DNA of 58,715 nucleotides. Source: a virus. Positions 7,240 through 43,398 of the stretch are shown here, piece by piece. The first letter of the stretch is position 1. Each line of letters starts with the position of its first letter. The notes beneath the pieces are model-generated. The model ran no database searches. It saw only the letters and a program-made list of their open reading frames with translations, and had not been told where the DNA came from. Position numbers and translations under genes: made by a program. The stretch lies in IMG/VR virus record IMGVR_UViG_3300032561_000025, positions 1 through 58,715 of that record; one strand, written 5' to 3'.

Positions 7240-7355
7240 GTCAGTTTGTACTCCCAGATTTCACGACCGTTCGAAACCCTGCGCTGCGACTTCTTGTGCG
7301 CCCCGGTTTTCTTGATTATCTTTCTGACGATCAGCGACCGGACAGGCGCGCTCAT
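7236..7355 (-). CDS. Tiny basic protein, 39 aa
   Basis: A small ORF (begins MSAPVRSLIVRKIIKKTG) with ten Lys/Arg in its first 30 residues. Its ATG overlaps the stop of the upstream repeat protein as ATGA, and its own stop overlaps the ATG of the Lar-like gene the same way. Two such overlaps make it very likely to be translated. Function is unknown. Confidence 0.7.
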   Translation of the reverse strand: MSAPVRSLIVRKIIKKTGAHKKSQRRVSNGREIWEYKLT

Positions 7356-8233
7356 TTCTTCACCTCCGTCGCGCTCGCGGCCTCCTTCGGCCTGTTGTCT
7401 TTAACGATGGTCGCGCCACTGTAGATCCCCCCTATCAGGCCAGAGAAGTATCCCCGAATCTCGTTCACGGTGCCGCCACAAATCTTGTTCACGGTGCCGC
7501 AACAAATCGCGTTCACGGTGCCGCCACAAATCTCGTTCACGGTGCCGCCACAAATCGCGTTCACGGTGCCGCCCCAAATCGCGTTCACGGTGCCGCCCCA
7601 AATCGCGTTCACGGTGCCGCCACAAATCGCGTTCACGGTGCCGCCACAAATCTCGTTCACGGTGCCGCCACAAATCGCGTTCACGGTGCCGCCCCGAATC
7701 TCGTTCACGGTGCCGCCACAAATCTTGTTCACGGTGCCGCCCCGAATCTCGTTCACGGTGCCGCCACAAATCTTGTTCACGGTGCCGCCCCAAATCGCGT
7801 TCACGGTGCCGCCACAAATCGCGTTCACGGTGCCGCCACAAATCGAGGAAATAACCATCGCGTGCGCACATTCGATCTTCGCGGAAGGAGCGATCACAAA
7901 TTGGCCGCCGATCAGGAGCGCAACGTCGCCTGTAACGATGATGCCCGAGACGTATTGCTTCATGCGCTCGATCACGGCGTCCTGGATTTCGTCCGTGAAC
8001 CATTCGGGTTTTCGCTCCTCGTCGAGATTGAATTTGTAGGTTTCGACCTGATGCGCTGTGGCAAGGCTTTCGGGCGAGAACTCGATCTTGGCGTAATTCA
8101 GGCGCGGACCGTAGTTGAGTTTGAAGATGGTCTCCAATTCCGAATGGGATTCGGTCCAGGGAGACAGCAGAAGGCGAAAACCGCCCTTTGCGGATTCGTC
8201 TTGAACGGCGATGGCTGACTTGTAATTGCACAT
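7352..8233 (-). CDS. GGTVN octapeptide-repeat protein
   Basis: A 293-residue protein in two parts. Residues 1-130 are a globular domain (begins MCNYKSAIAVQDES, with RLLLSPWTESHSELE) like those fronting other phage repeat proteins. Residues about 130-258 are sixteen tandem copies of the octapeptide I-x-G-G-T-V-N-x, where the variable positions are Cys/Trp/Arg and Ala/Glu/Lys. The regular turn spacing suggests a beta-solenoid. The first residue pair after Ile and the one before Ile vary independently, as if units are shuffled. It lies in a block lacking GTTTAAAC. Function is unknown; a binding scaffold is an inference. Confidence 0.72.
   Translation of the reverse strand: MCNYKSAIAVQDESAKGGFRLLLSPWTESHSELETIFKLNYGPRLNYAKIEFSPESLATAHQVETYKFNLDEERKPEWFTDEIQDAVIERMKQYVSGIIVTGDVALLIGGQFVIAPSAKIECAHAMVISSICGGTVNAICGGTVNAIWGGTVNKICGGTVNEIRGGTVNKICGGTVNEIRGGTVNAICGGTVNEICGGTVNAICGGTVNAIWGGTVNAIWGGTVNAICGGTVNEICGGTVNAICCGTVNKICGGTVNEIRGYFSGLIGGIYSGATIVKDNRPKEAASATEVKK
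7463..7846 (-). repeat. 16 x 24-bp tandem repeat
   Basis: Sixteen consecutive 24-bp units of consensus GTTCACGGTGCCGCCACAAA plus TCGC (plus-strand reading) encode the octapeptide repeat. Units differ at a few positions only (the Cys/Trp/Arg codon and the Ala/Glu/Lys codon). There are no spacers, so it is not CRISPR-like. Copy number could change by slippage or recombination without breaking the frame. Confidence 0.95.
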
Positions 8234-8710: not shown

Positions 8711-9388
8711 TTATTTGGCCCTCCCGGTGATGGGTGTTTTCTCTGATAGTCTTTTTTGAATCCACGCCTCGATCTTGGATAGGGTGGCTTCTAAAGCCGC
8801 CGCGTTAGCCGCCGCGTTAGCCGCCGCGCTAGCCGCCGCGTTAGCCGCCGCGTAAGCCGCGTGAGCCGCGTTAGCCGCGTGAGCCGCCGCGTAAGCCGCG
8901 TTAGCCGCCGCGTAAGCCGCCGCGCTAGCCGCCGCGTGAGCCGCCGCGTAAGCCGCGTTAGCCGCCGCGTAAGCCGCCGCGCTATTTTTCTCAGTCGGAT
9001 CAGCCAGCCACTTCTTTGCGGCCTCAATTGCCTCTCTCGGGCGATCCTCGCCGGGGTATTTCTTCTCGTAAATTCCAATGACCAGTTTCGCCGCGAAGAT
9101 GGCAAGAGAAACCGAGTCCTCCTTCTTCCATTCCCAGACTTCGACCAGCCGCATCTTCTGATGCACGCTCTTGTCAGCTTGGGCTAGACTTTCTCCAGCG
9201 ACTTCGACTCTCGCAATGAATGCGGTCCAAATATAGCCCATCGCGTCCAGCACTCGCTCGCTGCAATGAAAGCCGTTCTCGCAAAGGACTGGCTTGCCCT
9301 TGACTTGCTTCCACTCGCCAATTTTCCAAGCGCAGTTGCCGTGCGCTGACTTGAGACCATTTGCCAGCGTCTTGAATAGGGTTTTCAT
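8711..9388 (-). CDS. DUF7666-like protein with Ala-rich repeat
   Basis: A 225-residue protein. Residues 1-145 look like the domain found at the front of Ala-repeat phage proteins (CAWKIGEW, LCENGFHCSERVLDAMGYI, an ADKSVHQ stretch). Residues about 140-205 are a low-complexity helix built from AAYAAANA and AAHAA units, then a short charged end. The domain family is known in phages and bacteria without an assigned function; I recall it as DUF7666 but could not search. The start ATG at 9388 has a GGGAGGG stretch upstream. No GTTTAAAC is present. Confidence 0.65.
   Translation of the reverse strand: MKTLFKTLANGLKSAHGNCAWKIGEWKQVKGKPVLCENGFHCSERVLDAMGYIWTAFIARVEVAGESLAQADKSVHQKMRLVEVWEWKKEDSVSLAIFAAKLVIGIYEKKYPGEDRPREAIEAAKKWLADPTEKNSAAAYAAANAAYAAAHAAASAAAYAAANAAYAAAHAANAAHAAYAAANAAASAAANAAANAAALEATLSKIEAWIQKRLSEKTPITGRAK
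8797..8985 (-). repeat. Ala-coding low-complexity tandem repeat
   Basis: Irregular 9- and 12-bp units of GCCGCCGCGTTA/GTAA type encode Ala with interspersed Tyr, Asn, His and Ser. Unit lengths are multiples of three, so copy changes would keep the frame. It lies less than 1 kb from the 24-bp repeat array. Confidence 0.9.
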
Positions 9389-17644: not shown

Positions 17645-17965
17645 ATGAAAGTCCATATCTGGCGGGTGAAGCGTTCCCGGCTCCCGCGCCGCGAGGCCGG
17701 TGGAATCACGAAGTTCTCGTCGGTCCAGCTTTACTCAACAAGGAGCGATGCGGTTTCCCGAGCCTCGCTTCTCGTCCTGACAAAGCACCGTGCGAGGACC
17801 GAACTAAAAAAGCATTTAAACAAGTTTATCCAAAGCACGGGGAAAGTTCCCGTCGAGATGTGGTACAGGGTGTGGACCGAAAAGTTTCACGGGATGCCCG
17901 GCTTCAAGGGGGTCCACTACGATCTCTACGTCGAGTGGCAGCAAGCAACCCGCGACCCGTCCTAG
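17645..17965 (+). CDS. Small hypothetical protein, 106 aa
   Basis: A basic, helix-rich protein with aromatic clusters at its end (VEMWYRVW, HYDLYVEWQQ). A strong purine ribosome-binding site (AGGGGGGA) precedes the ATG. It is the last gene of the rightward operon, and its stop codon overlaps the stop of the DnaB gene on the other strand (CTAG). Confidence 0.62.
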   Translation: MKVHIWRVKRSRLPRREAGGITKFSSVQLYSTRSDAVSRASLLVLTKHRARTELKKHLNKFIQSTGKVPVEMWYRVWTEKFHGMPGFKGVHYDLYVEWQQATRDPS

Positions 17966-19358
17966 TCGCCGTGGGGTAGCCGGGACTGTTCGGGCTGGGG
18001 AGATCCCTGCCGGGCAGTCTCCGAGATCGGGACGAACTTCGTTATCCTTCGGACAAACCTGAAGGACATCAGCGAGGTCCCGTCATCCCGTCCCTTGGCT
18101 TGGATTACGTTCTGAAAAAAGCTGGGGATCTCGTCCTTGTCCGATGCTTCTGGCTGGGCCTTGCCACTCTTGGGGTCTTCGCTTGGGCGGTGTATGAGGA
18201 TCACCTTGTCGGCGTCCTCCTCCAGCGACCCGCTATCCCGCAGGTCCGACATCCTCGGCTCCCGGTTCTGCTCATTCGCGGAGAGGCGGTTCAACTGCCA
18301 TACGAGGATGATCACGATGTTCAACTCACCGGCCAGCAGCTTCAGGGTCTTCGTGATGCGCCCGATCCCCTGCATCTTTTCATCCTTGCTCCCGGCTAGG
18401 GCGACATCCTCAAGCAATCCGCCGTGGTCGATGACGGCGAGATCAACCTTTCCACTTGCGTGAAGAGCTTTTAGCCGTGCAACGACTCGGGCTAGGGAAC
18501 GGTCGCGTGAGGACGGAACGATGCCCGCTTTTTCGAGATCGGAAAGTTTCTGTTTAAACAAGTTCTGGTCGCCCGGATGGGCTCGGGCCAGATCGCGCAG
18601 GCCGACTCCGGAAACCTCGGCGGCAATTTGCAGGGCGACTTGGAGCGGCCTAACCTCAAGGGTGTCGAGATAAACCTTCACGCCATTGTTTGCCGCGTGG
18701 GAAATTATCTGCCGGGCAAGCGAGGATTTTCCCACGGAAGGCCGGGCTCCCAGAACGACAAGCTGCCCGCGCTGCATGGGTTCGAATAAATAATCCATTT
18801 CCTTCCAAGGCCACCGGACAATTGTTTCGGGCGGCAACTCGCGGGCCTTGATTATCGTTTCTGCGGCCTTTAAAGCCTCTGAGACGATCAGGGGCCACCT
18901 CGGTTCATCTTTGGCGTCTGAGGCCGCTGTAAGCGAAAGGATGCGCCCCACGGGGCCGTCCAGCAGTTCGGACAGACCCTCGCCACGGTAGGATTTGCAC
19001 CCATCGACAAGGTTCAGCCCCTCCTTCAGGACGGAGCGGACCACGAAAAGGTCCCTCACGCGATGTAGGTAATCCTTTAAACCAGCGGTGGTTGGGACTG
19101 CGGATGAAAGTTCGGACAGAAACTGGAGCCCACCGATGGACTCCAGTTCCCTGTTCGCCGTCAGTTCTTGGGCGAGTACACCTACGTCCAAGGATTTCCC
19201 TGCACCCAGCATGGCAACCATGCGCTGAAAAATAATCCGGTGCGATGCTGTCCAAAACCAGTCGGGCATCATCCCCGCTCCGAGACAAATTCCAAGGCTC
19301 TCGCTTCCGTCAAGCAAGCAGCAACTTATGACAGCGGCTTCCGATTTTGGGTCTTGGA

Positions 19359-19362
<4 letters not shown>
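17962..19362 (-). CDS. dnaB: Replicative DNA helicase, DnaB-like
   Basis: A 466-residue hexameric-type helicase. The N-terminal helical domain opens with SEAAVISCCLLDG and includes the FLSELSSAVPTTAGLKDY block typical of DnaB. The RecA-like C-terminal domain has Walker A GARPSVGKS at residues 205-213 and the Walker B-like VDLAVIDHGGLL, then IVWQLNRLS and the RDSGSLEEDADKVILIHR block with the arginine finger region. It unwinds the fork in phage replication. The start overlaps the loader-like gene by ATGA. No polymerase gene is seen, so the host polymerase is probably used. Confidence 0.95.
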
Positions 19363-20141
<779 letters not shown>

Positions 20142-20207
20142 GGTCGTGGGAAAATGTCGCCACCAACCAACGAAAGGTTGACCCCCTGCCTTGGGCAGCG
20201 GCAATCG

Positions 20208-23639: not shown

Positions 23640-26600
23640 TTAAATTTCTCCCCTACGCTTGAGTTCTTCAAGCATGGGAGCGGCAACATCATCCGAAAGT
23701 TTCTTCTCTCGGATCAGATTCTGGATGTACTCCTCCCGCTTGGCGTGTGGCATGGCTGCCACCTCTTCGGCCATTTGGAAACCCTGAATCTGGTTTGCCA
23801 CGCTGTCGGTGATTGTTTTGACCTTGATGCCGTGGGCAACGATTTCCTCTGCCTTATCCGGAGCCCGGTTTATCAGAGTCAAAAGGAACCTTGCCCGGTC
23901 GCCGTTTTCCTCGGTCATGTTTCGGATGTTCCGGTCCGACCCAGTAAGCCCCTCGACTTCCCCGGTGACATCCTTCAGGAGACGCTTGATCTGCGGCTCA
24001 GTCATCTTGGAAAGGGTTTCCGTAGCCTCGTCTGCCGTCATGTCGCTGTTCCAGCGAGAAGCTAGGGTTTGGATCTTCTTGCCCTCGGCGTCTCTGGCCT
24101 GCTGCTGATTCCAGAGGGCCGATGAAGAAGCCCCCTTGAACTCGTCAACCGGACTGCTCGATTCGCTGTAGCCGACCGCCTTGCCAAGCGACTTTGCGAT
24201 GTTGGCCGCTCCAGATGCCGTGGGGCTTTGGCCGGGCCGTACCCGTGCGGAGCCCTGCATATACGCGGCGATCTGGGGCTGAATGGTTCCTAATGCAGCC
24301 TTGGCGTTTTCACCGAACTGAGCACCGGTCGGGAAATTTGTGCGATCTAGCGGGTTGGCAATGTCGGCGACACGGTAACCGTTCACGGTATGTCCGGAGA
24401 TCATCACCGATGCCGCGTTCACTGCCGGTCCGCACCACGGCTGGGTCATGCCGCCGATGATGTCCGTCATCGATTCTCCCGCGATGTGGTTGGGATCATA
24501 CCCGTCCTTGAGCCCGTTCACCACTGAGTTTAAACCAGTGATGCGCATTCCACGGCGAAGGTTCGTCCACTTCAGGGGATCCACGTAATGCAGTGTCCCC
24601 TCCTTGTCGGTCCATCCGATTGCCCCCACCGGGGTTCCGGGCGGTCCCATGATCTTGCCGCTGAGAAGGTAATTCAGTGTGAGCGGCACGGCGATGGTAC
24701 TGACCAATGTGCCAGCCAGATTCGATGCCATCATCTTAGCCATTGCCGATCCGCTCGCCGCCTCGACTCCCGGTGCTCCCACAAGGGCGCGGACCGCACC
24801 ACGGTTGAAGTTCTGACCGGCCACGATGAACGGGGCCACACCGGCTTCCTTTGCGAACTGCTTCACCCTGCCCATGAGCCGTGTGTCGTACTGTCCGATC
24901 TGATTGATAAAGTCGCGCCTGCTGGCTTCGCTGTCCTTTGCAAGCCCTTGATCAACGAGATTGTCGTACAGGTCATCCATCACCAGACGCCCGGCCCGGT
25001 CGATGGCTTGAATGATTCCGGGGTGGGTTGCGCGGAGGGCTCCGGTCTCGGCCATGTGCGTCAGCTTATCGGCCACCTCGCCCATCGTGATCGGGTCCTG
25101 CATCGAAGAAAGCTGTTTAAATCCGGGCAAACGATTGAGCTTCCCAAGAAGTTCCGGGTCGTTCGCGCAGACATCCCTTAGGCGTTTCATCAGACGGATG
25201 TTCGCGTCGGCAATGTTCACTCCGGGGATCCGGCTCGCAATGTCCCACGGTGAGTTGCGTCCCAGTGATCGGGCAATCGTCGCCTCGATGTTCGCAACGT
25301 GGAAGGTGGGATCGGTGATGCTCTTCAACTGAACTGTGTTCATCGCCTTTGCGAACATCAGCCAGCCGTTCGAATCGAGCGGGCTGTCGGTCTGCATCAA
25401 GTGCCGGTGCTCGCTCCAGATGTCCTTGCGGATGTAGAGCGGTTCGCCACGGGCGAGGTAGGGATGGGTTTCCTCCCTCTTCCAGTTCCCCATGTCCTCG
25501 GGATCCGGTTCGGTTGTAGCCAGCCCGGCATCTTGCAGGCGGTTGTAATACTCGACCTTGGCGGCTCGCTCCGCATTCGCGGACGCCATCTTGGCGACCT
25601 GATTCTTGTAGGAAAGGTCGTAGCCCTCGGCGGTCCCGGCGCGTTCCATGTTCGTCGAGCTTCCCTGCCTGCGAGGATTTAAAAGGTTTCCGCGCCGCAT
25701 TCCTGCGGTTTCCCCTGTGTTTGGGAACCCTCCCTTTTCCGCATCCATGTCCCGCAGCAATGCCTCGGTGTTCACAAATACACCCGTGTTCGGGCCAAGG
25801 GCCGCGATCTTCCCTCCAAGCAGTCTCTGCCGTTCCTCGGCAATCTGCTGGATCCCGGCCTTATGCTTCTCCAGCACTGCCTGAACTTCCGGATTCTTCA
25901 ACGCGGCATCAAATTCCTCTTGGGTATGAATCGCCGTTCCCGGCATATCGAACACCGGCTTAACCCTCGGGATCTGCGCCTCGACGCGCTTCAGATCCTC
26001 ACGGGCCATCTTCTTCGTCTCCGCGTCTGCTTTCGGGTCATCGATGGTGGCGCGGGCGGCATCGCGCTGCTGATAAAGCTGATCCAGCTTGGCAAGCTGC
26101 ATCTCATGCACGGTCACCGATCCGATCAGCCGGTCGAAGTCAGGATCGTCCCAGTGAGTGCCAAGGTTTTTGATAGCCTCGGATGCGCCCTGCATATACC
26201 CAAGCTGACGCGCACCAACCAAGCGAAACGCGCCATTGGCGGCATTCTCGTCCGCTGCGCGAATATGGGGGATTCCATCCTTCGTGATGGCATACCTCAG
26301 GTAGCGAAAAGCGTTCGCGGTGCCACCCGGATGAGACAGGGCGAAGATCCCTCCACCGGTCAACATTGCCGCAGCCGCACCGTACCCCAAAGCATTCCGC
26401 AGCTTCACCTCCGGATCGTCGCTGTCCGTGTGATACCACCCGTAGGACGCTCCGCTCGCCCCGGCAAGCAACATGGGGGAATACTTTAGGATGCGGGCAT
26501 CGATGAAGCCTGCGGTGTTCGGATCTGCGGCCTTGTCGGGCGGCAGCTTTTCCAGTTCGGACTCGCGCTTTAAACGCTCCTTCTGGGCTGCGGACTCGGC

Positions 26601-29600
26601 GGCGTCCATGACATCCCCGAACCCACCAGCATTTTCATCCATGCGAACCGGCATGATGACAGACGCCATTCTGTCCCCATCCGTCAAGACCATCGCCTTG
26701 TCCTCAGGCCCAATGTAAAGCCTAGGGTTGTTCGTACCCATTCCGCGTGCCTGCTCCAATCCGTCCCGCAGAAAGTCGGAATTGATCGAGAAGATCGGCT
26801 TGCTGCCCTTCGCTATTCCCGGAGCGGAGTATTCACCCGTCTCCAAATTTTGTACCCCGATAGCCAGCTTGCCGTTACCGATGTCGTAAATTCCGACCGC
26901 ATTGTGCTTTTCATCCAGCATCGCTGCGGCCCGGTCGATCTGCTTGATCAGATCCTCGGCATCCACCTTGTACGGCTTGTACGGACCCGTGTCCCGCTTG
27001 ATCGTGACACCATTCTTCCCAACGTCCATGACTTCCTTCGGGACAACCTCCCTCCAGTTCGGATATTTACCACCGTCCTTGTTCTTGGCGATGTCTGCAA
27101 TGTCCCTGCCCTTACCGCCGATAGCAAACGTCAAGCGGCGTCCATCTGTGGCAACCGTGAACGGTCCATCCTGTGCGACCTGATTCAGGACGTAGCGCGT
27201 TGAATCTGTGCTCTGCGAAAGGGCTACCGTTTTCGTGATACTTTCCGCCGTGGGGTTATCGTTTAAACGTGCTACCCCCTTGGGATTCGGAGCTTCCCTT
27301 CCTCCGAGTTCCTTTCCGAACGGAGGCTGAACGGTGACCCTTTCAGATTCCCTCGGATCGAACGGGAGCGTGAAGGACTTCCCGAAACGCTTGTTGATGA
27401 TGTCCCTGAAATTGGTGAGCGCAGCCTTGGAGTTTACGACCGAATAGGACCCGTCATCGGGAACATGGATGACAACCTTTCCCGCCGGTTCATCCGGAGC
27501 CTTGTCGATTAGTTGACCCAGAGCATCGTTGATGAATGCCTTCTGCGCCCCGAACTGCTTCTTGTCCACCAGACGCGAGACTGACTTCTCGCCGACTTCC
27601 GTGGTCTTGGCCTCAACCCCACCGTCCGGGGTTGTCTCGACATGGGCCGGTGCCTTCTCCTCGGGTGCTCCCTCGACCTCGACCGGGATGGGCTTTGCAG
27701 GCGTGCCTTCCGGTTTAAATTCACCAGCCGCTTCCTTCATCCCAGAGCGCAGCGCAACCCGGATCTGAGCAGCCACATCATCCGCAACCGACTTTTTGTT
27801 CTCAGAAATCTTTAGGATGTCGGCTAGATTGTCGTTGGAAATCAGCCCGTCCTGACCGTACTTCCGGGCCAGTTGCGCCATCTGCCAGCTAGTGACGTTC
27901 TCCGCTGCGGACCGCTCATCGACTTCGCCCAGTGCCTTCTGATATTGTTCGGCGGTTGGCGCGGGCTTTTCAATCCCCGGTGCCTCTTCCTCGTCAATGC
28001 TGACAGGAATCGTGGGAGGTTCCGCTTTCGGTGCTGCCTTCTCCGGAACAGGAGCGGGTGCCGCTTCGGCGGGTGCCGGGGCTTGGGGTGCTTCGGATGC
28101 TGGCGCAGCAGGCGCAGGGACAGCGGCGGGGGAGGGAACTGGAGCGGGGGCTTTCTGCGCGTTTTCCGCATTCGCCCGCAAGCTCATCTTGAGTTCGTTC
28201 CCAAGATCCTCAGGACCCATGTCCTTGTCCTTTGCCATGCGCTGAACCTCTGCAAGTCCGCGATCCGTGATCAGCCCGTTCTTCAACGCCTTGCGTGCCA
28301 ATGATATGATCTTGGACTTCTTAACCTCAGGATCGATCAAAGCGTTATCGACTTCTTCCTGTGCGGCATCGTGCGGGGACTGCTTCGCCTCAGGCTCCGC
28401 TTCGCCTTCCTTGGGCTTAACAATCTCCAGCAACTGATCCTGATATTCCTGACGGGTCAGTTCGTGCGCCCGCAACTGCTCCTTCATGTAGTCGAGCCGG
28501 TCGGGATCTGACGCCTTCAGCTTGGCCTCTGCCTCACGGATCATTGCGGGGGTCGGCCTTGGCGTTTCTGTGGCCGCTGCGGCTGGAACGGGCTCCTCGG
28601 CACCCTTGGGTACTGCCGGGGGACTGGTGGGCTTAAAAGCGGGTTTCTGGGCCGATGCGGGGGTTTCCTGCGCCGGGGTAGGCGGGACCTCATAACCGGC
28701 CCGCTCCAACTGTTGCGCGGTGACCGTCTGGCCCTTTGTCCCTCCAAGGATGTCTTCGTTTAAACGGTAAACCGGCTTTTCGCCATCGGCTCCAAAGGAC
28801 ATCGTTCCGGCGTAAACCGCAGGGGCGGTCTTGCGCGGGGCGGCGGGTCCGGTCGTGGGACGCTCGCTGGTCGCCGCAGGGGAAGTCGGGCCAGCCGGTG
28901 TGGTGGATTCTGCCGGGGGAGTCGGCGCGGTCGATTCACCGGCCTGCATCTTTTCCACCTTCTCCTGATCGTTCGGGAAGCTGGCGGGAACCGTTCCCTG
29001 CGGAAGCCCCGGCTGCTCAAGACTGGGTTTCTGAGACTGCTCGATCTTTTGCTCCAGTGCCGCCCGCTGCTTTTCCTGATCGGCTTGTGGTCCGGTCATC
29101 TTCCCCTCTTCCGCTCCGGGAACCATTGCCTCCCCCTCGCGCTGGGTCTTCAGCGCATTCTGCCACCACTCGATATAGGAGTCCCTTGCCTTGGCCGCGT
29201 CCTCGTCGGTTTTCGCGGCCTTGTCGAGCATATCGATGGCATCCACCGGATGCTTCCCCTCAATTGTCTTTGCGATGTCGGGAGGAACGTCGAGCGGGGA
29301 CATGGCGTGCGCTGCCGCTGCGGCGGCTCCGGTCAGGCCAAACAGCACGCTGCCCACCGCAGCGATCTTGTCGGCAAGCGTTGACTTCGGATTCTTAAAC
29401 ACCCCAACCACCTCCGGAATCTGGTCGAGAGCACCCTTCGCCATCTGCACGCCAAACCCACCGGAAATGATGTGTGACAGGAGCGGGGAAATTCCTGCGG
29501 CCCCAGAGGAGGCAAGCATCAATGCCGCGTTCTCCGGAGTCGCCATGCTCTGTGCGAAGTCGCCACCCGCACGGGCCATGCCCTCCGCTACTCCACCCTT

Positions 29601-30179
29601 CGGAGCGGCGGGGAATATGTCTCCGGGGTGTTCAGGCAGGGGAAGGAAATTGCGACCTCCGTCACCCGGCTTCTTGTCGTAACTCTGCTTGATCCAGCGT
29701 GCAACCGGAGCAAGCGGGAGCGGAACTGGCAATCCGGGGGCCACCATCGCGCCCTTCGAATAACTCTGGATTATCCGAGCCGCAACGTCTTCAGCCGGTT
29801 CCTTTACCGAATCCGGAATGCCTTTTGTGTTTCGATTCTTGAGCAGCGGATCCTGATCCAAAACTCCCTCAAGCGCGGTTCCCGTGGCCGAAAGAAGTTT
29901 GCCCGCCGTGCTTCGTTTAAACTCGTCAGTGATGCGCCCCAAGGCTCCTCGTCCACGGTAATTGTTCTCGTCGGGCTGCGCGGGTTCCTCCTGTTCAGGC
30001 TGGGGGCCAAGAAGGTCGGTGACACTTTGACCACCTTCCGGTCGCGGGGGCGGTCCAAGCAAATCATTGACGGACTGCTGCTGACGCTGCGCCGCAGACG
30101 GATCCGTACCCAATAGGTCGGCGACCGTCTTCCCTGCGGCGGTTTGGTCCGGGCCGAGGAGATCAGCGACGGTTGCCAT
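23640..30179 (-). CDS. Giant internal virion / polyvalent protein, 2179 aa
   Basis: The largest gene. Residues 1-60 hold four TVADLLG-like repeats, then a Pro/Ala/Glu-rich disordered region to about 930 with transmembrane-like helices near 200-280. Residues about 985-1180 resemble a DNA sliding clamp: a CVATDG-like TVATDGRRLTFAIGG start, then INSDFLRDGLEQARGM and ending SVIMPVRM. Membrane-like Ala/Gly helices follow (about 1235-1285). A region from about 1600 (LKSITDPTFHVANIEATIA) resembles the LPD38-type domain of large polyvalent proteins. It is probably ejected with the DNA. AGGAGA precedes the ATG. Several TTTAAA motifs lie inside. Confidence 0.7.
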   Translation of the reverse strand: MATVADLLGPDQTAAGKTVADLLGTDPSAAQRQQQSVNDLLGPPPRPEGGQSVTDLLGPQPEQEEPAQPDENNYRGRGALGRITDEFKRSTAGKLLSATGTALEGVLDQDPLLKNRNTKGIPDSVKEPAEDVAARIIQSYSKGAMVAPGLPVPLPLAPVARWIKQSYDKKPGDGGRNFLPLPEHPGDIFPAAPKGGVAEGMARAGGDFAQSMATPENAALMLASSGAAGISPLLSHIISGGFGVQMAKGALDQIPEVVGVFKNPKSTLADKIAAVGSVLFGLTGAAAAAAHAMSPLDVPPDIAKTIEGKHPVDAIDMLDKAAKTDEDAAKARDSYIEWWQNALKTQREGEAMVPGAEEGKMTGPQADQEKQRAALEQKIEQSQKPSLEQPGLPQGTVPASFPNDQEKVEKMQAGESTAPTPPAESTTPAGPTSPAATSERPTTGPAAPRKTAPAVYAGTMSFGADGEKPVYRLNEDILGGTKGQTVTAQQLERAGYEVPPTPAQETPASAQKPAFKPTSPPAVPKGAEEPVPAAAATETPRPTPAMIREAEAKLKASDPDRLDYMKEQLRAHELTRQEYQDQLLEIVKPKEGEAEPEAKQSPHDAAQEEVDNALIDPEVKKSKIISLARKALKNGLITDRGLAEVQRMAKDKDMGPEDLGNELKMSLRANAENAQKAPAPVPSPAAVPAPAAPASEAPQAPAPAEAAPAPVPEKAAPKAEPPTIPVSIDEEEAPGIEKPAPTAEQYQKALGEVDERSAAENVTSWQMAQLARKYGQDGLISNDNLADILKISENKKSVADDVAAQIRVALRSGMKEAAGEFKPEGTPAKPIPVEVEGAPEEKAPAHVETTPDGGVEAKTTEVGEKSVSRLVDKKQFGAQKAFINDALGQLIDKAPDEPAGKVVIHVPDDGSYSVVNSKAALTNFRDIINKRFGKSFTLPFDPRESERVTVQPPFGKELGGREAPNPKGVARLNDNPTAESITKTVALSQSTDSTRYVLNQVAQDGPFTVATDGRRLTFAIGGKGRDIADIAKNKDGGKYPNWREVVPKEVMDVGKNGVTIKRDTGPYKPYKVDAEDLIKQIDRAAAMLDEKHNAVGIYDIGNGKLAIGVQNLETGEYSAPGIAKGSKPIFSINSDFLRDGLEQARGMGTNNPRLYIGPEDKAMVLTDGDRMASVIMPVRMDENAGGFGDVMDAAESAAQKERLKRESELEKLPPDKAADPNTAGFIDARILKYSPMLLAGASGASYGWYHTDSDDPEVKLRNALGYGAAAAMLTGGGIFALSHPGGTANAFRYLRYAITKDGIPHIRAADENAANGAFRLVGARQLGYMQGASEAIKNLGTHWDDPDFDRLIGSVTVHEMQLAKLDQLYQQRDAARATIDDPKADAETKKMAREDLKRVEAQIPRVKPVFDMPGTAIHTQEEFDAALKNPEVQAVLEKHKAGIQQIAEERQRLLGGKIAALGPNTGVFVNTEALLRDMDAEKGGFPNTGETAGMRRGNLLNPRRQGSSTNMERAGTAEGYDLSYKNQVAKMASANAERAAKVEYYNRLQDAGLATTEPDPEDMGNWKREETHPYLARGEPLYIRKDIWSEHRHLMQTDSPLDSNGWLMFAKAMNTVQLKSITDPTFHVANIEATIARSLGRNSPWDIASRIPGVNIADANIRLMKRLRDVCANDPELLGKLNRLPGFKQLSSMQDPITMGEVADKLTHMAETGALRATHPGIIQAIDRAGRLVMDDLYDNLVDQGLAKDSEASRRDFINQIGQYDTRLMGRVKQFAKEAGVAPFIVAGQNFNRGAVRALVGAPGVEAASGSAMAKMMASNLAGTLVSTIAVPLTLNYLLSGKIMGPPGTPVGAIGWTDKEGTLHYVDPLKWTNLRRGMRITGLNSVVNGLKDGYDPNHIAGESMTDIIGGMTQPWCGPAVNAASVMISGHTVNGYRVADIANPLDRTNFPTGAQFGENAKAALGTIQPQIAAYMQGSARVRPGQSPTASGAANIAKSLGKAVGYSESSSPVDEFKGASSSALWNQQQARDAEGKKIQTLASRWNSDMTADEATETLSKMTEPQIKRLLKDVTGEVEGLTGSDRNIRNMTEENGDRARFLLTLINRAPDKAEEIVAHGIKVKTITDSVANQIQGFQMAEEVAAMPHAKREEYIQNLIREKKLSDDVAAPMLEELKRRGEI

Positions 30180-30183
30180 CGCG

Positions 30184-31449
30184 TTAGTCTCCTACATTGA
30201 ACCGCTTTTTGAGGACTGCGGCGGCTTGATCCCAAGTGATCTTTTTGGCCTTGTAATCGGCAACGACCTGATCGGTGGACTTGTAATTCGCGCCGAAGTC
30301 GGTGAGCCCTCCCTCTTCTTTGGCTGGGGCAGAAGTCTGCGGGAGAGGCTGGGCAGGCGAGGCTGGGTTCGGAGGAGGATTGCTGAATGTTCCCGTCCTT
30401 GAACTCGGTCCGTTTCCGGGGGCCGTTCCGCTGCCGCCCTGCGTTCCTGTGGCAGGCTGCGCGTTTCCGGCACCATTTTTCTTGGCCTGAATCGCGGCGA
30501 GCAGGGTATCTGTCGCCGAAGTCTTGGGCTGACCGGAAATCTTCACGGACGCCTGCCGTTTCTGAAGGGCATCAAGTTGCGCCTGCGCCTTCGCATATTC
30601 AGGGCTGTTCTGATCCATGCCCTCCATTGAGGTCGCAAGCTCGTCGATCTGCGCCTGATTCTGACGCCACTCAGACTGTGCAGGGGGCTTGGTGTTCTTC
30701 GGAGCCCCCGGAGCCGTGGCAGATGCGGCATTGATCAAACCCTGCGCCGTTGAATACTCAAGGGCCGCTTTCGTCTTTTCCTCCTGAGAAGCGTTCGGAT
30801 CCATGATGACCCCCATCGCGGCGTCCATGCGATTTTGGGCATTGTTCTGCCAAACGCTTCTCCCCGTCCGCTCGATCTTCTCGGTCGGAGCACCGAAAGG
30901 AACCGCCTCGCCCTTCTCATTAACTGCGGTGGGCTGTTCCGTCGAAGTCGTGATTCCCGGCGTCTTCGGGTTCTCGGGATTGATCGTCACACGCGATCCA
31001 ATCGGGGCGAGAGTGTTCGTAACATCTGAGGCGATATTGCGATTAATGACCTGACCGGTATTCGGATCCCTGATAGGAATCCCGGTCTGGACATTCAACG
31101 AAGTCGTTCCGGTATCCAGATTTCGGCTAGGCGTTGACGTTCTGCTTTCCGGAAGCTGACCGTTGTGGGTCGCCGCGTAAACCTTCAACTCTGGGGAAAG
31201 TTGATTGATCGCATTCCTTGCATCGGCTTCTGCCTGACGCCGCGCAACTTCTCCTGCGACCGCCGCAGCGACCGCTCGCGGATCGATGGTGGGCGCAGCT
31301 TCAGCACCCGCCTTCTGCGTGGCGATCTTCTGCTGCGCCAGTGCCTGCTTCTGAATCGCGTCCTGTATAAACGCCTGTTCAGCCTCGTTGCCCATCTTCG
31401 CCGTGTCGAAGAAGCCTGCGTCCCCTAGTGATACAAAGTTGCCGGGCAT
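30184..31449 (-). CDS. Internal virion protein, 421 aa
   Basis: A Gln/Ala-rich helical N-terminus (residues 20-100) is followed by a Thr/Asn-rich middle and a Pro/Gly/Ser-rich segment. The end is a small helical domain (STDQVVADYKAKKITWDQAA). This low-complexity plan, and its place between the 265-residue protein and the giant protein, fits a podovirus internal (ejection) protein. No enzymatic motif is seen. Confidence 0.6.
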   Translation of the reverse strand: MPGNFVSLGDAGFFDTAKMGNEAEQAFIQDAIQKQALAQQKIATQKAGAEAAPTIDPRAVAAAVAGEVARRQAEADARNAINQLSPELKVYAATHNGQLPESRTSTPSRNLDTGTTSLNVQTGIPIRDPNTGQVINRNIASDVTNTLAPIGSRVTINPENPKTPGITTSTEQPTAVNEKGEAVPFGAPTEKIERTGRSVWQNNAQNRMDAAMGVIMDPNASQEEKTKAALEYSTAQGLINAASATAPGAPKNTKPPAQSEWRQNQAQIDELATSMEGMDQNSPEYAKAQAQLDALQKRQASVKISGQPKTSATDTLLAAIQAKKNGAGNAQPATGTQGGSGTAPGNGPSSRTGTFSNPPPNPASPAQPLPQTSAPAKEEGGLTDFGANYKSTDQVVADYKAKKITWDQAAAVLKKRFNVGD

Positions 31450-31463
31450 GGTAGTTTAAATTC

Positions 31464-32261
31464 CTAGAACGCGAGAAGGTCTGGAAGGAATGAACTTAAC
31501 ATATCGGCGATGCCTCCACCAGCAGCAGACATTAACCCTGCCGTTCCTCCCGTGCCTCCGAGCAAATTGTAGATGCTTCCCGCACCTGTAAGCCCTCCGA
31601 GGATAGACTGAAGTTGGTTCGGCTGCTGAACCATCGTCGGATATCCGATTGTTGCTCCACCGGCAAGTTGCTGTGTGACCCCAGCCTGAGACTGGTACGG
31701 GGCGTACAGCGCATTGTTCACTCCGGACAGGTAGCTCAAGGGCTGGCTCACCGCACCCGAGATGATGCCCGGTGCGTTCTGCTGCTGCTGCCGCTCAAAC
31801 TCCTCGTTCTGGGTGAGGATCTGGCCGCGTGACAACGCGCCCTTCTGGGCCGCAGAGGCAATGTCGGCGTCCGTCGCCTGCTGGTTGGCCGTAGAGAATC
31901 CCATTCCCGCCCGAGACATTTGCGCCCTCTGGCGTGCCGCAGCGTCCTGCCCGGCTCCCAACTGGCTCTGATACGCCTGATTTGCGTAGTTGGAAACCAG
32001 CGGGCTCTGAAGGTAATTCCCGTTCAGTTCGTTTAAACCGTAGTTGTAAATCGAACCGAAGGCCGGATTGTTCGCTGCTCCCTGAAGGCGATTGGCAAAT
32101 GCGTTTGCCGAGTTCGTCGCGTTGCTGAGTCCCCCGTTGTTCAATGCGTCGAAGATCGACTGCATCGAAGTGATCGCACCCGTGTTCGGGGTGTTGCCCT
32201 GACCGTACATATTGTATACGGAGGGCTGAACGGTCGAGTAATTGGTCCCTAGGAAACTCAT
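31464..32261 (-). CDS. Internal virion protein, 265 aa
   Basis: Taken from the ATG at 32261. A Asn/Ala/Gln-rich protein (begins MSFLGTNYSTVQPSVYNMYG) with coiled helices in the middle (QMSRAGMGFSTANQQAT) and a Gly/Leu-rich C-terminal stretch that could insert in a membrane. Similar proteins precede the large ejection proteins in podoviruses. The assignment rests on composition and position. Confidence 0.6.
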   Translation of the reverse strand: MSFLGTNYSTVQPSVYNMYGQGNTPNTGAITSMQSIFDALNNGGLSNATNSANAFANRLQGAANNPAFGSIYNYGLNELNGNYLQSPLVSNYANQAYQSQLGAGQDAAARQRAQMSRAGMGFSTANQQATDADIASAAQKGALSRGQILTQNEEFERQQQQNAPGIISGAVSQPLSYLSGVNNALYAPYQSQAGVTQQLAGGATIGYPTMVQQPNQLQSILGGLTGAGSIYNLLGGTGGTAGLMSAAGGGIADMLSSFLPDLLAF

Positions 32262-32311
32262 GTGCCGGGCTTGAGTTTCTTGACAAAACTTTCCTACAGG
32301 CAACAAGAAAC

Positions 32312-41015: not shown

Positions 41016-42251
41016 ATGACTGAAATACCCTCCGAGTCAGAGAAAATCCCTGACGAGCCAAAGACCGAAATTGTTGAATTGTCCGCTCTGGAAACAATCG
41101 AGCGTGCTCAGATCGACTCCCAAATATCCACCGCACGGAAATTCCCCCGTGTGCTGTCCAAGGTAAAGGCCGATATGCTGACTTTCGCCACGCTGGACGA
41201 GGAAACCGCAGCCTCCTGCTTCTACACCCTTCCGCGAGGAGGGAAGGTAATTCAGGGGCCGAGCATCCGTCTGGCCGAAATTGCGGTCAGTTGCTACGGG
41301 AATATGCGGACCGGGGCTCGCGTGATCGACGTACAGGCGTCCGGGGACAACCCCCATGTCGTTGTCCAAGCCGTCGCGCATGACCTCGAAAGGAACCTCG
41401 CCATTTCCATCGAGAAACGGCGCAGGATCTTCAAGAAGAAGAACAAGCCGAATATTGACGAGGATGACATCAATCTCGCCTGCAACGCCTGCATCGCCAT
41501 CGCCTTCCGCGATGCCGCCTTCAAGGTGGTCCCCCTCGCCCTGATTAAGCCCGTTTTCGACCGGGCGAAGCGGGTTGCGGTCGGCGAGGTCAGCAGCCTT
41601 GTCGAGAAACGCGGGAAAATCATCGACCGCCTGAAGCAGATGGGCGTCATGGAAAACCGTATTTTGGCAGTCGTTGACTGTCAGAAGGTTGAGGATGTCA
41701 CCATCGACAAGCTCGAAATCCTGATCGGCCTCGGGACCGCTCTCAAGGATGGAGAGACAACCATCGAGGAGGCATTCCCCACCGCCCCCCAGACCGAACT
41801 TCGCAGGCCGTTGTTTAAACAAGCGGACTCGGCCCATCCCGCCGGAACCACGGGATCGCCACCGGCCAGCGGTTCTGCCCCGGCCACATCGGCGGCAGAC
41901 TCCCACCCGGATCTTGAGGCGCAGACTCCTCCCGCTGCCCCGCCGCAGCCTCAGGAACCGCCCAAGCGCGGCCCCGGTCGCCCGAGGAAGGTACAGGATG
42001 CCCCACCGGCTCCCACGGCCCCCAGCGAGCCTGAAATCACCCCGCAGGAGCGCGAGACGATGATCAACCGGATGCAGCAGGAGATGCTGAACGGGAACGT
42101 CAGCGAAACTCGCCTCTTCGCCTACGCCAAGAATCTGCCCGGCATGGTTCACGAAGGCGCGGCAAGCGTGTGGGAACTGAAATCCTCCGCTCTTGCCAAG
42201 CTGGAAAAGGCAATAACCGGGCTTTCGACAATTCCCCATCCCCCAGCCTAA
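41016..42251 (+). CDS. Single-strand annealing-like recombination protein with AT-hook
   Basis: A 411-residue protein. Residues 40-240 hold the segments ETAASCFYTLPRGG, IQGPSIRLAEIA and NACIAIAFRDAAFKVVP, which I associate with a phage family paired with RecB-like nucleases and thought to be annealing proteins. The C-terminal third is Pro/Ala-rich and contains KRGPGRPRKVQ near residue 320, a good AT-hook (GRP core) for the minor groove of AT-rich DNA, then a helical end. It is the first gene of the recombination operon and has no Shine-Dalgarno. GTTTAAAC at 41813 is read as Phe-Lys. Confidence 0.68.
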   Translation: MTEIPSESEKIPDEPKTEIVELSALETIERAQIDSQISTARKFPRVLSKVKADMLTFATLDEETAASCFYTLPRGGKVIQGPSIRLAEIAVSCYGNMRTGARVIDVQASGDNPHVVVQAVAHDLERNLAISIEKRRRIFKKKNKPNIDEDDINLACNACIAIAFRDAAFKVVPLALIKPVFDRAKRVAVGEVSSLVEKRGKIIDRLKQMGVMENRILAVVDCQKVEDVTIDKLEILIGLGTALKDGETTIEEAFPTAPQTELRRPLFKQADSAHPAGTTGSPPASGSAPATSAADSHPDLEAQTPPAAPPQPQEPPKRGPGRPRKVQDAPPAPTAPSEPEITPQERETMINRMQQEMLNGNVSETRLFAYAKNLPGMVHEGAASVWELKSSALAKLEKAITGLSTIPHPPA

Positions 42252-42252
42252 C

Positions 42253-43398
42253 ATGAGCGAGGAAAATCCTTCCGTCGAAGTCGGGGAAAATCCTGACTCC
42301 CGTCGTGGCCTGCCAAGCGCATCGGAGTACCCCCGGATACATGGGTGTCCGGGGTATCTCCAGCTAAAGAGAAAATTACCCCATAGGGATCCGGTGGTTT
42401 TTGACTACACCGAGAGCGGAAAACGAATTCACGCTTATCTGGCTGATCCATCGTCTGATAAGAAAATGTTGGGGCTCAAGGACGAGGAAATTGAATTCGC
42501 TGTCCGGTGCTGGGAGCAGTGGATCTCCATGCTCGACAAATATTTCCCGGCAGTCGATCCCGCGACTGCCGTCGAGGATATTGTCGAGCGCAGAATATTC
42601 CTGAAGGGTCCGGACGGCAGGGATATTTTCAGCGGACAACTCGACCGAATCATGGTCGCGCCGAAATTAATCATCGGCACCGACTGGAAAACCGGACGCA
42701 TACCGGTTGAAAGCGTCGAGTCGAATATGCAGATCAGAGCCTATGTCGTTCTGATCGCAGAACTTCTAGGTTATGATCGGACCATCCTGATGTCGATCAT
42801 TCAGCCGTGGATTTCCCAGACTCCAATCCTCGTTGAATACGGCCCCGAGGAAATCAAGAAGGCGAGGGAGGAATTATTTGCCACCCTGCGCCTTGCCGAG
42901 GAGCCCAATGCCCTCCGGATCCCCGGTGAGCACTGCCGTTACTGCCCATGCCGGGCAAACTGCGAAGAAGCGAAATTTGTCACTATGGAGCTTTCCAAGG
43001 TAGAGCCCGCTACCCTTACCTCAAACGACCAGATTGCGGCCTTCCTAGGCCGTGTATCGCTTGCGGAAAAGGTCATTGAGGCGGTAAAGGCAGAGGCCAA
43101 GCGCAGGATCGAGGCCGGTGAGGTAATACCCGGATGGTGCCTTCGCCCCGGTCGCAAGATGGATGAAATCACCGATGCCGAGTTGGTTTTCACCCGCGCC
43201 TCAAATCTCGGCGTAACCCCACAGCAGTTCATGTCTGCCGTCAAAATCGTAAAGGGATCCCTGAAGGATGCCGTGAAAGCGGCCACCAATCAGAAGGGTA
43301 AATCATTGGACGAAACGATGGCAGTCCTGCTCGATGGTTGCGTCACGGAAAAGTTGGCGGCTTCGTTCCTAGCGCAGGAAACCAAACCGTCTGTTTAA
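42253..43398 (+). CDS. RecB/Cas4-like exonuclease (DUF2800-like)
   Basis: A 381-residue nuclease of the PD-(D/E)XK fold. Residues 133-160 contain FSGQLDRIMV and GTDWKTGR, the D...DWK core. The C-terminal cysteines (GEHCRYCPCRANCEE) match the Fe-S clamp of Cas4/AddB-like proteins. It starts one base after the annealing gene's stop and probably resects DNA for it. Its stop TAA is supplied by a GTTTAAAC. Confidence 0.85.
   Translation: MSEENPSVEVGENPDSRRGLPSASEYPRIHGCPGYLQLKRKLPHRDPVVFDYTESGKRIHAYLADPSSDKKMLGLKDEEIEFAVRCWEQWISMLDKYFPAVDPATAVEDIVERRIFLKGPDGRDIFSGQLDRIMVAPKLIIGTDWKTGRIPVESVESNMQIRAYVVLIAELLGYDRTILMSIIQPWISQTPILVEYGPEEIKKAREELFATLRLAEEPNALRIPGEHCRYCPCRANCEEAKFVTMELSKVEPATLTSNDQIAAFLGRVSLAEKVIEAVKAEAKRRIEAGEVIPGWCLRPGRKMDEITDAELVFTRASNLGVTPQQFMSAVKIVKGSLKDAVKAATNQKGKSLDETMAVLLDGCVTEKLAASFLAQETKPSV

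Follow-up and report, generated by a model that had tools for sequence, protein, structure and literature searches.

A truncated DnaN-like clamp module that keeps most of its peptide pocket within a giant, putatively polyvalent phage protein

We analysed a contig of 58,715 bases held as a virus record in IMG/VR (IMGVR_UViG_3300032561_000025; the whole stretch is termed the window), which may be a fragment because IMG/VR classes its ends as linear. On the minus strand, an open reading frame at 23640-30179 encodes 2179 amino acids with zero internal stops, and residues 976-1182 of its product (26634-27254, minus strand) form a truncated module that is homologous to the bacterial beta clamp, DnaN. 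An initial annotation of this DNA had proposed a sliding-clamp-like region at residues 985-1180 of a virion protein, and the strings that it quoted were present at the given sites (VATDGRRL at residue 1009, SINSDFLRDGL at 1131 and DRMASVIMPVRM at 1169). Its interpretation as a whole was partly supported. The clamp-like region was confirmed as DnaN-homologous by sequence profiles and predicted fold, and the proposed kinship with the second and third domains of DnaN is real, but the alignments contain only half of domain 2 together with the whole of domain 3.

Profile searches matched PHROG 947 (DNA polymerase processivity factor) to residues 1071-1182 with an E-value of 2.8e-5, and a six-frame search gave a second, collinear match at approximately residues 980-1018. 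Pfam profiles for DnaN domain 3 (E-value 0.008) and domain 2 (E-value 0.13) matched weakly, under their curated cut-offs, and in the correct order. The profile-profile comparison recommended in the initial annotation produced an hhalign E-value of 1.4e-11 for the whole protein against ten DnaNs, and of 1.3e-13 when residues 960-1185 were used. The clamp region scored 94.4, whereas none of 100 shuffles exceeded 20.6 and the reversed sequence reached 12.6; 226-residue pieces clear of the clamp scored at most 21.1 and two pieces that each covered part of it scored 61-63. Chance resemblance was rejected on the basis of the shuffles, the other segments of the protein and a second embedded case on another contig (L042). 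Single-sequence queries with the whole protein, the clamp alone or the C-terminal part detected no relatives among phage records, viral contigs, genome contigs and plasmids, with one search returning chance-level matches only; aligning every clamp together gave too diverse a query for scanning.

Structure prediction, the other check that had been suggested, returned a clamp rather than a model devoid of any clamp-type domain. Model 1 (AlphaFold, residues 860-1190) was built from rows of the window and L042 only, with DnaN rows excluded, and had a mean predicted local distance difference test score (pLDDT) of 49.7, with values of approximately 59-87 in the domain 3 part. All of its 50 best Foldseek matches in the PDB were beta clamps (50/50; best E-value 2.4e-4), and the VIA comparison gave a Z of 9.0. 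Model 2 (residues 960-1190) included DnaN rows and scored higher, with a pLDDT of 80.8, a predicted template modelling score of 0.81 and every secondary-structure element of domain 3 present. Superposition on residues 130-365 of E. coli beta gave a Z of 17.5 over 177 residues, with a root-mean-square deviation of 3.3 and 25% identity. The fold of model 2 was biased towards a clamp through its own alignment, whereas model 1 was free of such bias. No other fold family stood at the top of the Foldseek or VIA lists, though such listing does not exclude one. The significant profile similarity and the clamp fold together place the module in the DnaN superfamily.

Three parts of the clamp have been kept, all encoded on the minus strand. 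The first half of domain 2 (TRYVLNQ ... TVATDGRRL; residues 976-1021, 27117-27254) aligns with approximately residues 138-178 of E. coli beta, and the DnaN alignment identifies the interdomain linker as GKYPNWREVVP (residues 1037-1047, 27039-27071), the equivalent of GRFPDYRRVLP in E. coli. Domain 3 is complete and ends in VIMPVRM (residues 1066-1182, 26634-26984), as delineated by PHROG 947, Pfam PF02768 and the elements of the model. The second half of domain 2 (E. coli approximately 178-238) is missing, with some 20 residues in place of about 60, and the alignments place no domain 1 in the module. A DnaN subunit has six beta-alpha-beta halves, of which the module therefore retains three, short of the three domains per subunit of a complete processivity clamp. 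Comparison with the DNA-contact residues given in PMC5042465 indicates that most of these contacts have gone with domain 1 and the R197/K198 stretch: the channel and loop I positions R24, R73, R80, R197 and K198 all fall in the missing parts, and only R152 and Y153 remain from loop II.

Because domain 2 has been halved and domain 3 alone is intact, it is unlikely that the module forms a normal clamp ring by itself or encircles DNA. Trimeric clamps exist, and the domain 3 and half domain 2 that remain might in principle oligomerise, such that copies would assemble into a ring on the entering DNA in the manner of PCNA trimers built from two-domain subunits. We consider a working clamp of this kind highly improbable, as only three of six half-domains are present, both ends are embedded in a long chain, the channel residues are missing and a clamp loader was not found. 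The free face of domain 3, which has no domain 1 of its own, could alternatively dock on domain 1 of a host clamp and cap it, so that host rings stay open. Twort Gp168, which prevents loading of the host clamp, offers a phage precedent, as cited in PMC11139829. However, loss of I272 and L273 renders E. coli beta monomeric (PMC3022782), and these interface residues are replaced by Ala and Met in the window and by Gln and Ala in L042. A poisoning subunit would also leave retention of the pocket unexplained, and we regard this explanation as very unlikely.

A review lists 18 residues of the clamp pocket (PMC11139829), and 13 of these are identical to E. coli in the window module, as compared to 49 of 194 aligned positions overall (25%; hypergeometric p 1.4e-5). 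Judged from these alignments, what survives of the clamp appears to be mostly the protein-binding pocket between domains 2 and 3. Since the ring and channel have been lost and most of the pocket has been kept, the most plausible reading is that the module binds proteins with clamp-binding motifs.

The second embedded case, L042 (IMGVR_UViG_3300042876_000313, a 76.6-kb contig), was found by a mixed-alignment scan. The match to the clamp falls within an open frame of 3777 codons or more, which is cut by the end of the contig, encodes a protein of more than 3400 residues and comes after two smaller genes. The same part of domain 2 is missing, H175R and Y323F are present as in the window, and position 246 carries R246Q. 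Window and L042 also have in common a segment before the clamp (VP.DG......NSK.AL); in the window, this small conserved segment, VVIHVPDDGSYSVVNSKAAL...KRFG, spans residues 893-935 (27375-27503, minus strand). The motif was absent from the other giant proteins, and the segment recovered nothing when used as a search query. In a phylogenetic tree the window and L042 modules group as sisters (support 0.985) and the free mini-clamps of other phages fall elsewhere; this grouping deserves caution because of the long branches. Three further matches to the L042 clamp (H76-H78) were rejected as additional cases, being ordinary full-length DnaNs. The best viral fold match, the UniProt entry A0A6J7W9M3 in BFVD, is named 'Large polyvalent protein-associated domain-containing protein' and offers a lead to a third case.

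Persistence of the same truncated form in the distant L042 bears on whether the module is a relic, that is, a captured piece of clamp that stays folded as a structural spacer with no binding role or serves only in virion assembly. Partial alteration of the pocket (H175R, R246E) and the small number of close relatives found are as expected of a relic. The pocket motifs are, however, among the most conserved positions, and a mere spacer need not retain VATDGRRL, YPNW and VIMP; we view a relic as unlikely.

The carrier of the module is very probably an ejected polyvalent protein, as the position of its gene and the cargo of its relatives suggest and in line with the ejection proposed by the initial annotation. 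The frame at 23640-30179 shares its C-terminal region with giant proteins of other phages: residues 1298-2008 (24156-26288, minus strand) are 33% identical to the giant protein of the phage G007, and the region recurs in five further contigs. Polyvalent proteins, as described by Iyer et al. 2017 (PMC5512222), where a clamp is not named among the cargo, are giant, multidomain and equipped with variable cargo in a shared frame, and the same features are seen here. Relatives of the C-terminal region carry an SLT transglycosylase (L038) or helicase and Eco57I-type methylase matches (L041). G006, a phage with a related terminase, encodes a 2551-residue protein at the same gene position, without detectable similarity to the window protein. 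No clamp was detected in the C-terminal relatives or in G006. The G006 protein (L021 1447-9099) contains a radical SAM domain (E-value 1.4e-8), cargo that is unusual in virion proteins.

Directly upstream of the giant gene are two smaller genes, of 280 and 421 amino acids (30184-32306, minus strand), which from their position are probably other internal virion proteins. Their order is the same in G006 and G007, such that in all three phages a gene of 280-284 amino acids and a gene of 302-437 amino acids precede the giant gene. The giant protein itself starts with four copies of a short repeat, VADLLG / VNDLLG / VTDLLG (residues 4-58, 30006-30170, minus strand). Most giant proteins of this kind open with several copies of a short peptide, which differs from one protein to the next (L019, L021, L036, L038-L042 and the window): VADLLG in the window, FDPNAPVD in L036/G007, DPYA in G006, GPWxKY in L040, PTWxxT in L039, IEYLGPLE in L038 and FGGxxVDE in L042. 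These repeats might act as a docking or packaging signal. Of the membrane-like helices that the initial annotation attributed to the protein, one stretch (residues 272-290) exceeds a Kyte-Doolittle value of 1.6 over 19 residues and none other does. For the LPD38-like region also mentioned there, Pfam PF18857 produced zero matches in any record and was equally silent on the controls.

Elsewhere in the window, PHROG matches identify a DnaB-like helicase and a DnaD-like helicase loader or primosomal protein (17962-20204, minus strand), and the record also encodes a phage exonuclease and an MT-A70 methylase. The earlier remark that the phage encodes DnaB and no recognisable polymerase was borne out among the scanned proteins of the record, in which neither a second clamp nor a clamp loader was found. 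With DnaB and its loader present and a polymerase not found, the phage should depend on host Pol III. A search for clamp-binding motifs in twenty window genes and the giant protein gave one chance-like match only. Other features of the window include a protein matching PHROG 3657, of unknown function, immediately before the phage exonuclease (PHROG 69) at 41016-43398 on the plus strand, a pair that resembles a recombination module; a protein with about fifteen near-perfect decapeptide repeats of the ICGGTVNAI/EIRGGTVNK type (7352-8233, minus strand); and a protein whose low-complexity C-terminal part consists almost only of Ala, Asn, Tyr, His and Ser (AAYAAANAAYAAAHAA...; 8711-9388, minus strand).

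These observations suggest a model in which the 2179-residue polyvalent virion protein would enter the cell together with the phage DNA, bearing residues 976-1182 as one exchangeable cargo module. In the first minutes of infection the module could bind host proteins with clamp-binding motifs, such as the alpha subunit of Pol III, the delta subunit of the clamp loader, Hda, RecB and others. One outcome may be that Pol III or the loader is brought to the incoming phage DNA; the other would be that Hda, translesion polymerases or RecB are held back from it. Recruitment and decoy or sequestration fit the sequence equally well. We place at about even chances the proposal that the carrier is ejected with the DNA and that its truncated, DnaN-homologous module acts as a non-encircling mimic that binds host clamp-binding-motif proteins. 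The homology, the truncation, the retention of most of the pocket and the second embedded case are observed, and ejection, ligand binding and the direction of the effect are inferred.

One sub-case of this proposal is a nuclease decoy, in which the linear incoming DNA is shielded because the module has engaged the clamp-binding motif of a repair protein, RecB or another. In E. coli, the QVEMEF motif of RecB binds the canonical clamp pocket, and DNA degradation is altered when this motif is lost (PMC13254535); ejection at time zero would coincide with the need for protection. Nothing ties the module to RecB over other motif-bearing partners, and a decoy aimed specifically at nucleases is an unlikely form of the proposal.

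Several observations weigh against a pocket-binding mimic in general. Pocket changes comprise H175R, at a histidine that bridges two subsites, together with R246E, Y323F and M364V; of the 18 pocket residues, 16-17 are retained in ordinary phage clamps, apart from one clamp that retains 13. The well-scored model 2 used DnaN rows, and the DnaN-free model 1 was the one with the low mean pLDDT. Finally, the readable embedded cases number only two, the window and L042.

A broader reading, to which we give somewhat less than even chances, is that at least two distant phage lineages inject a 'pocket-only', non-ring clamp mimic that seizes host clamp-binding proteins (polymerase, loader, Hda or RecB) before phage gene expression, and that free mini-clamps have been similarly reduced by a different loss. 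Sliding clamps are thought of as rings, and a pocket-only clamp delivered with the DNA would, if true, be a new means by which a phage commandeers or disables the replication and repair of its host at time zero. The same pocket is also studied as an antibacterial target. The finding extends the known cargo of polyvalent proteins to a replication hub and suggests that phages encode a broader class of non-ring clamp fragments, misannotated or not annotated at all.

Phage clamp fragments are of a known kind, as are polyvalent proteins; a clamp fragment that keeps its pocket and serves as polyvalent cargo was not found in the open-licence full texts searched. Bacterial DnaN (PF02767/PF02768, PHROG 947; E. 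coli beta, PDB 3q4j) shares with the module the first half of domain 2, domain 3, the linker and most of the pocket, but the module lacks domain 1, the second half of domain 2 and the channel residues, and sits in a 2179-residue protein instead of being a free ring subunit. Twort Gp168 and similar inhibitors are, like the proposed module, phage proteins aimed at the host clamp system; Gp168 differs in binding the clamp channel and in not being a clamp homologue. P1 DarB/DdrB and the N4 virion RNA polymerase (PMC5512222) resemble the window protein as giant, multidomain, virion-type proteins with a conserved frame and exchangeable cargo; that paper names no clamp cargo, and the window protein is only putatively ejected. 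The giant protein of L042 has the same truncated clamp, preceding segment, H175R, Y323F and two smaller genes before it; the two are 34% identical in this region and differ in the rest of the giant protein, the L042 frame being cut by the contig end.

Among free proteins, the nearest in kind to the module are the phage mini-clamps (Sodalis phage SO-1 gp7, Serratia phage Eta_0010 and others), reduced clamps of about 170-190 residues with the pocket motifs VATDGH, GRFPD and VIMPMRL. Their genes lie at L022 1483-2022, L023 1579-2094, L024 1444-2022, L025 1435-1989 and L026 1471-1989, and in L049-L052; several are labelled RusA-like Holliday junction resolvase, and some adjoin head or tail genes. 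As genes of about 180 codons that combine a complete domain 2 with the second half of domain 3, they are a type to which the window module does not belong. They lack domain 1 and, in a deletion opposite to that of the window module, the first half of domain 3; they form a separate clade, yet both kinds keep the pocket motifs from both sides of the boundary between domains 2 and 3.

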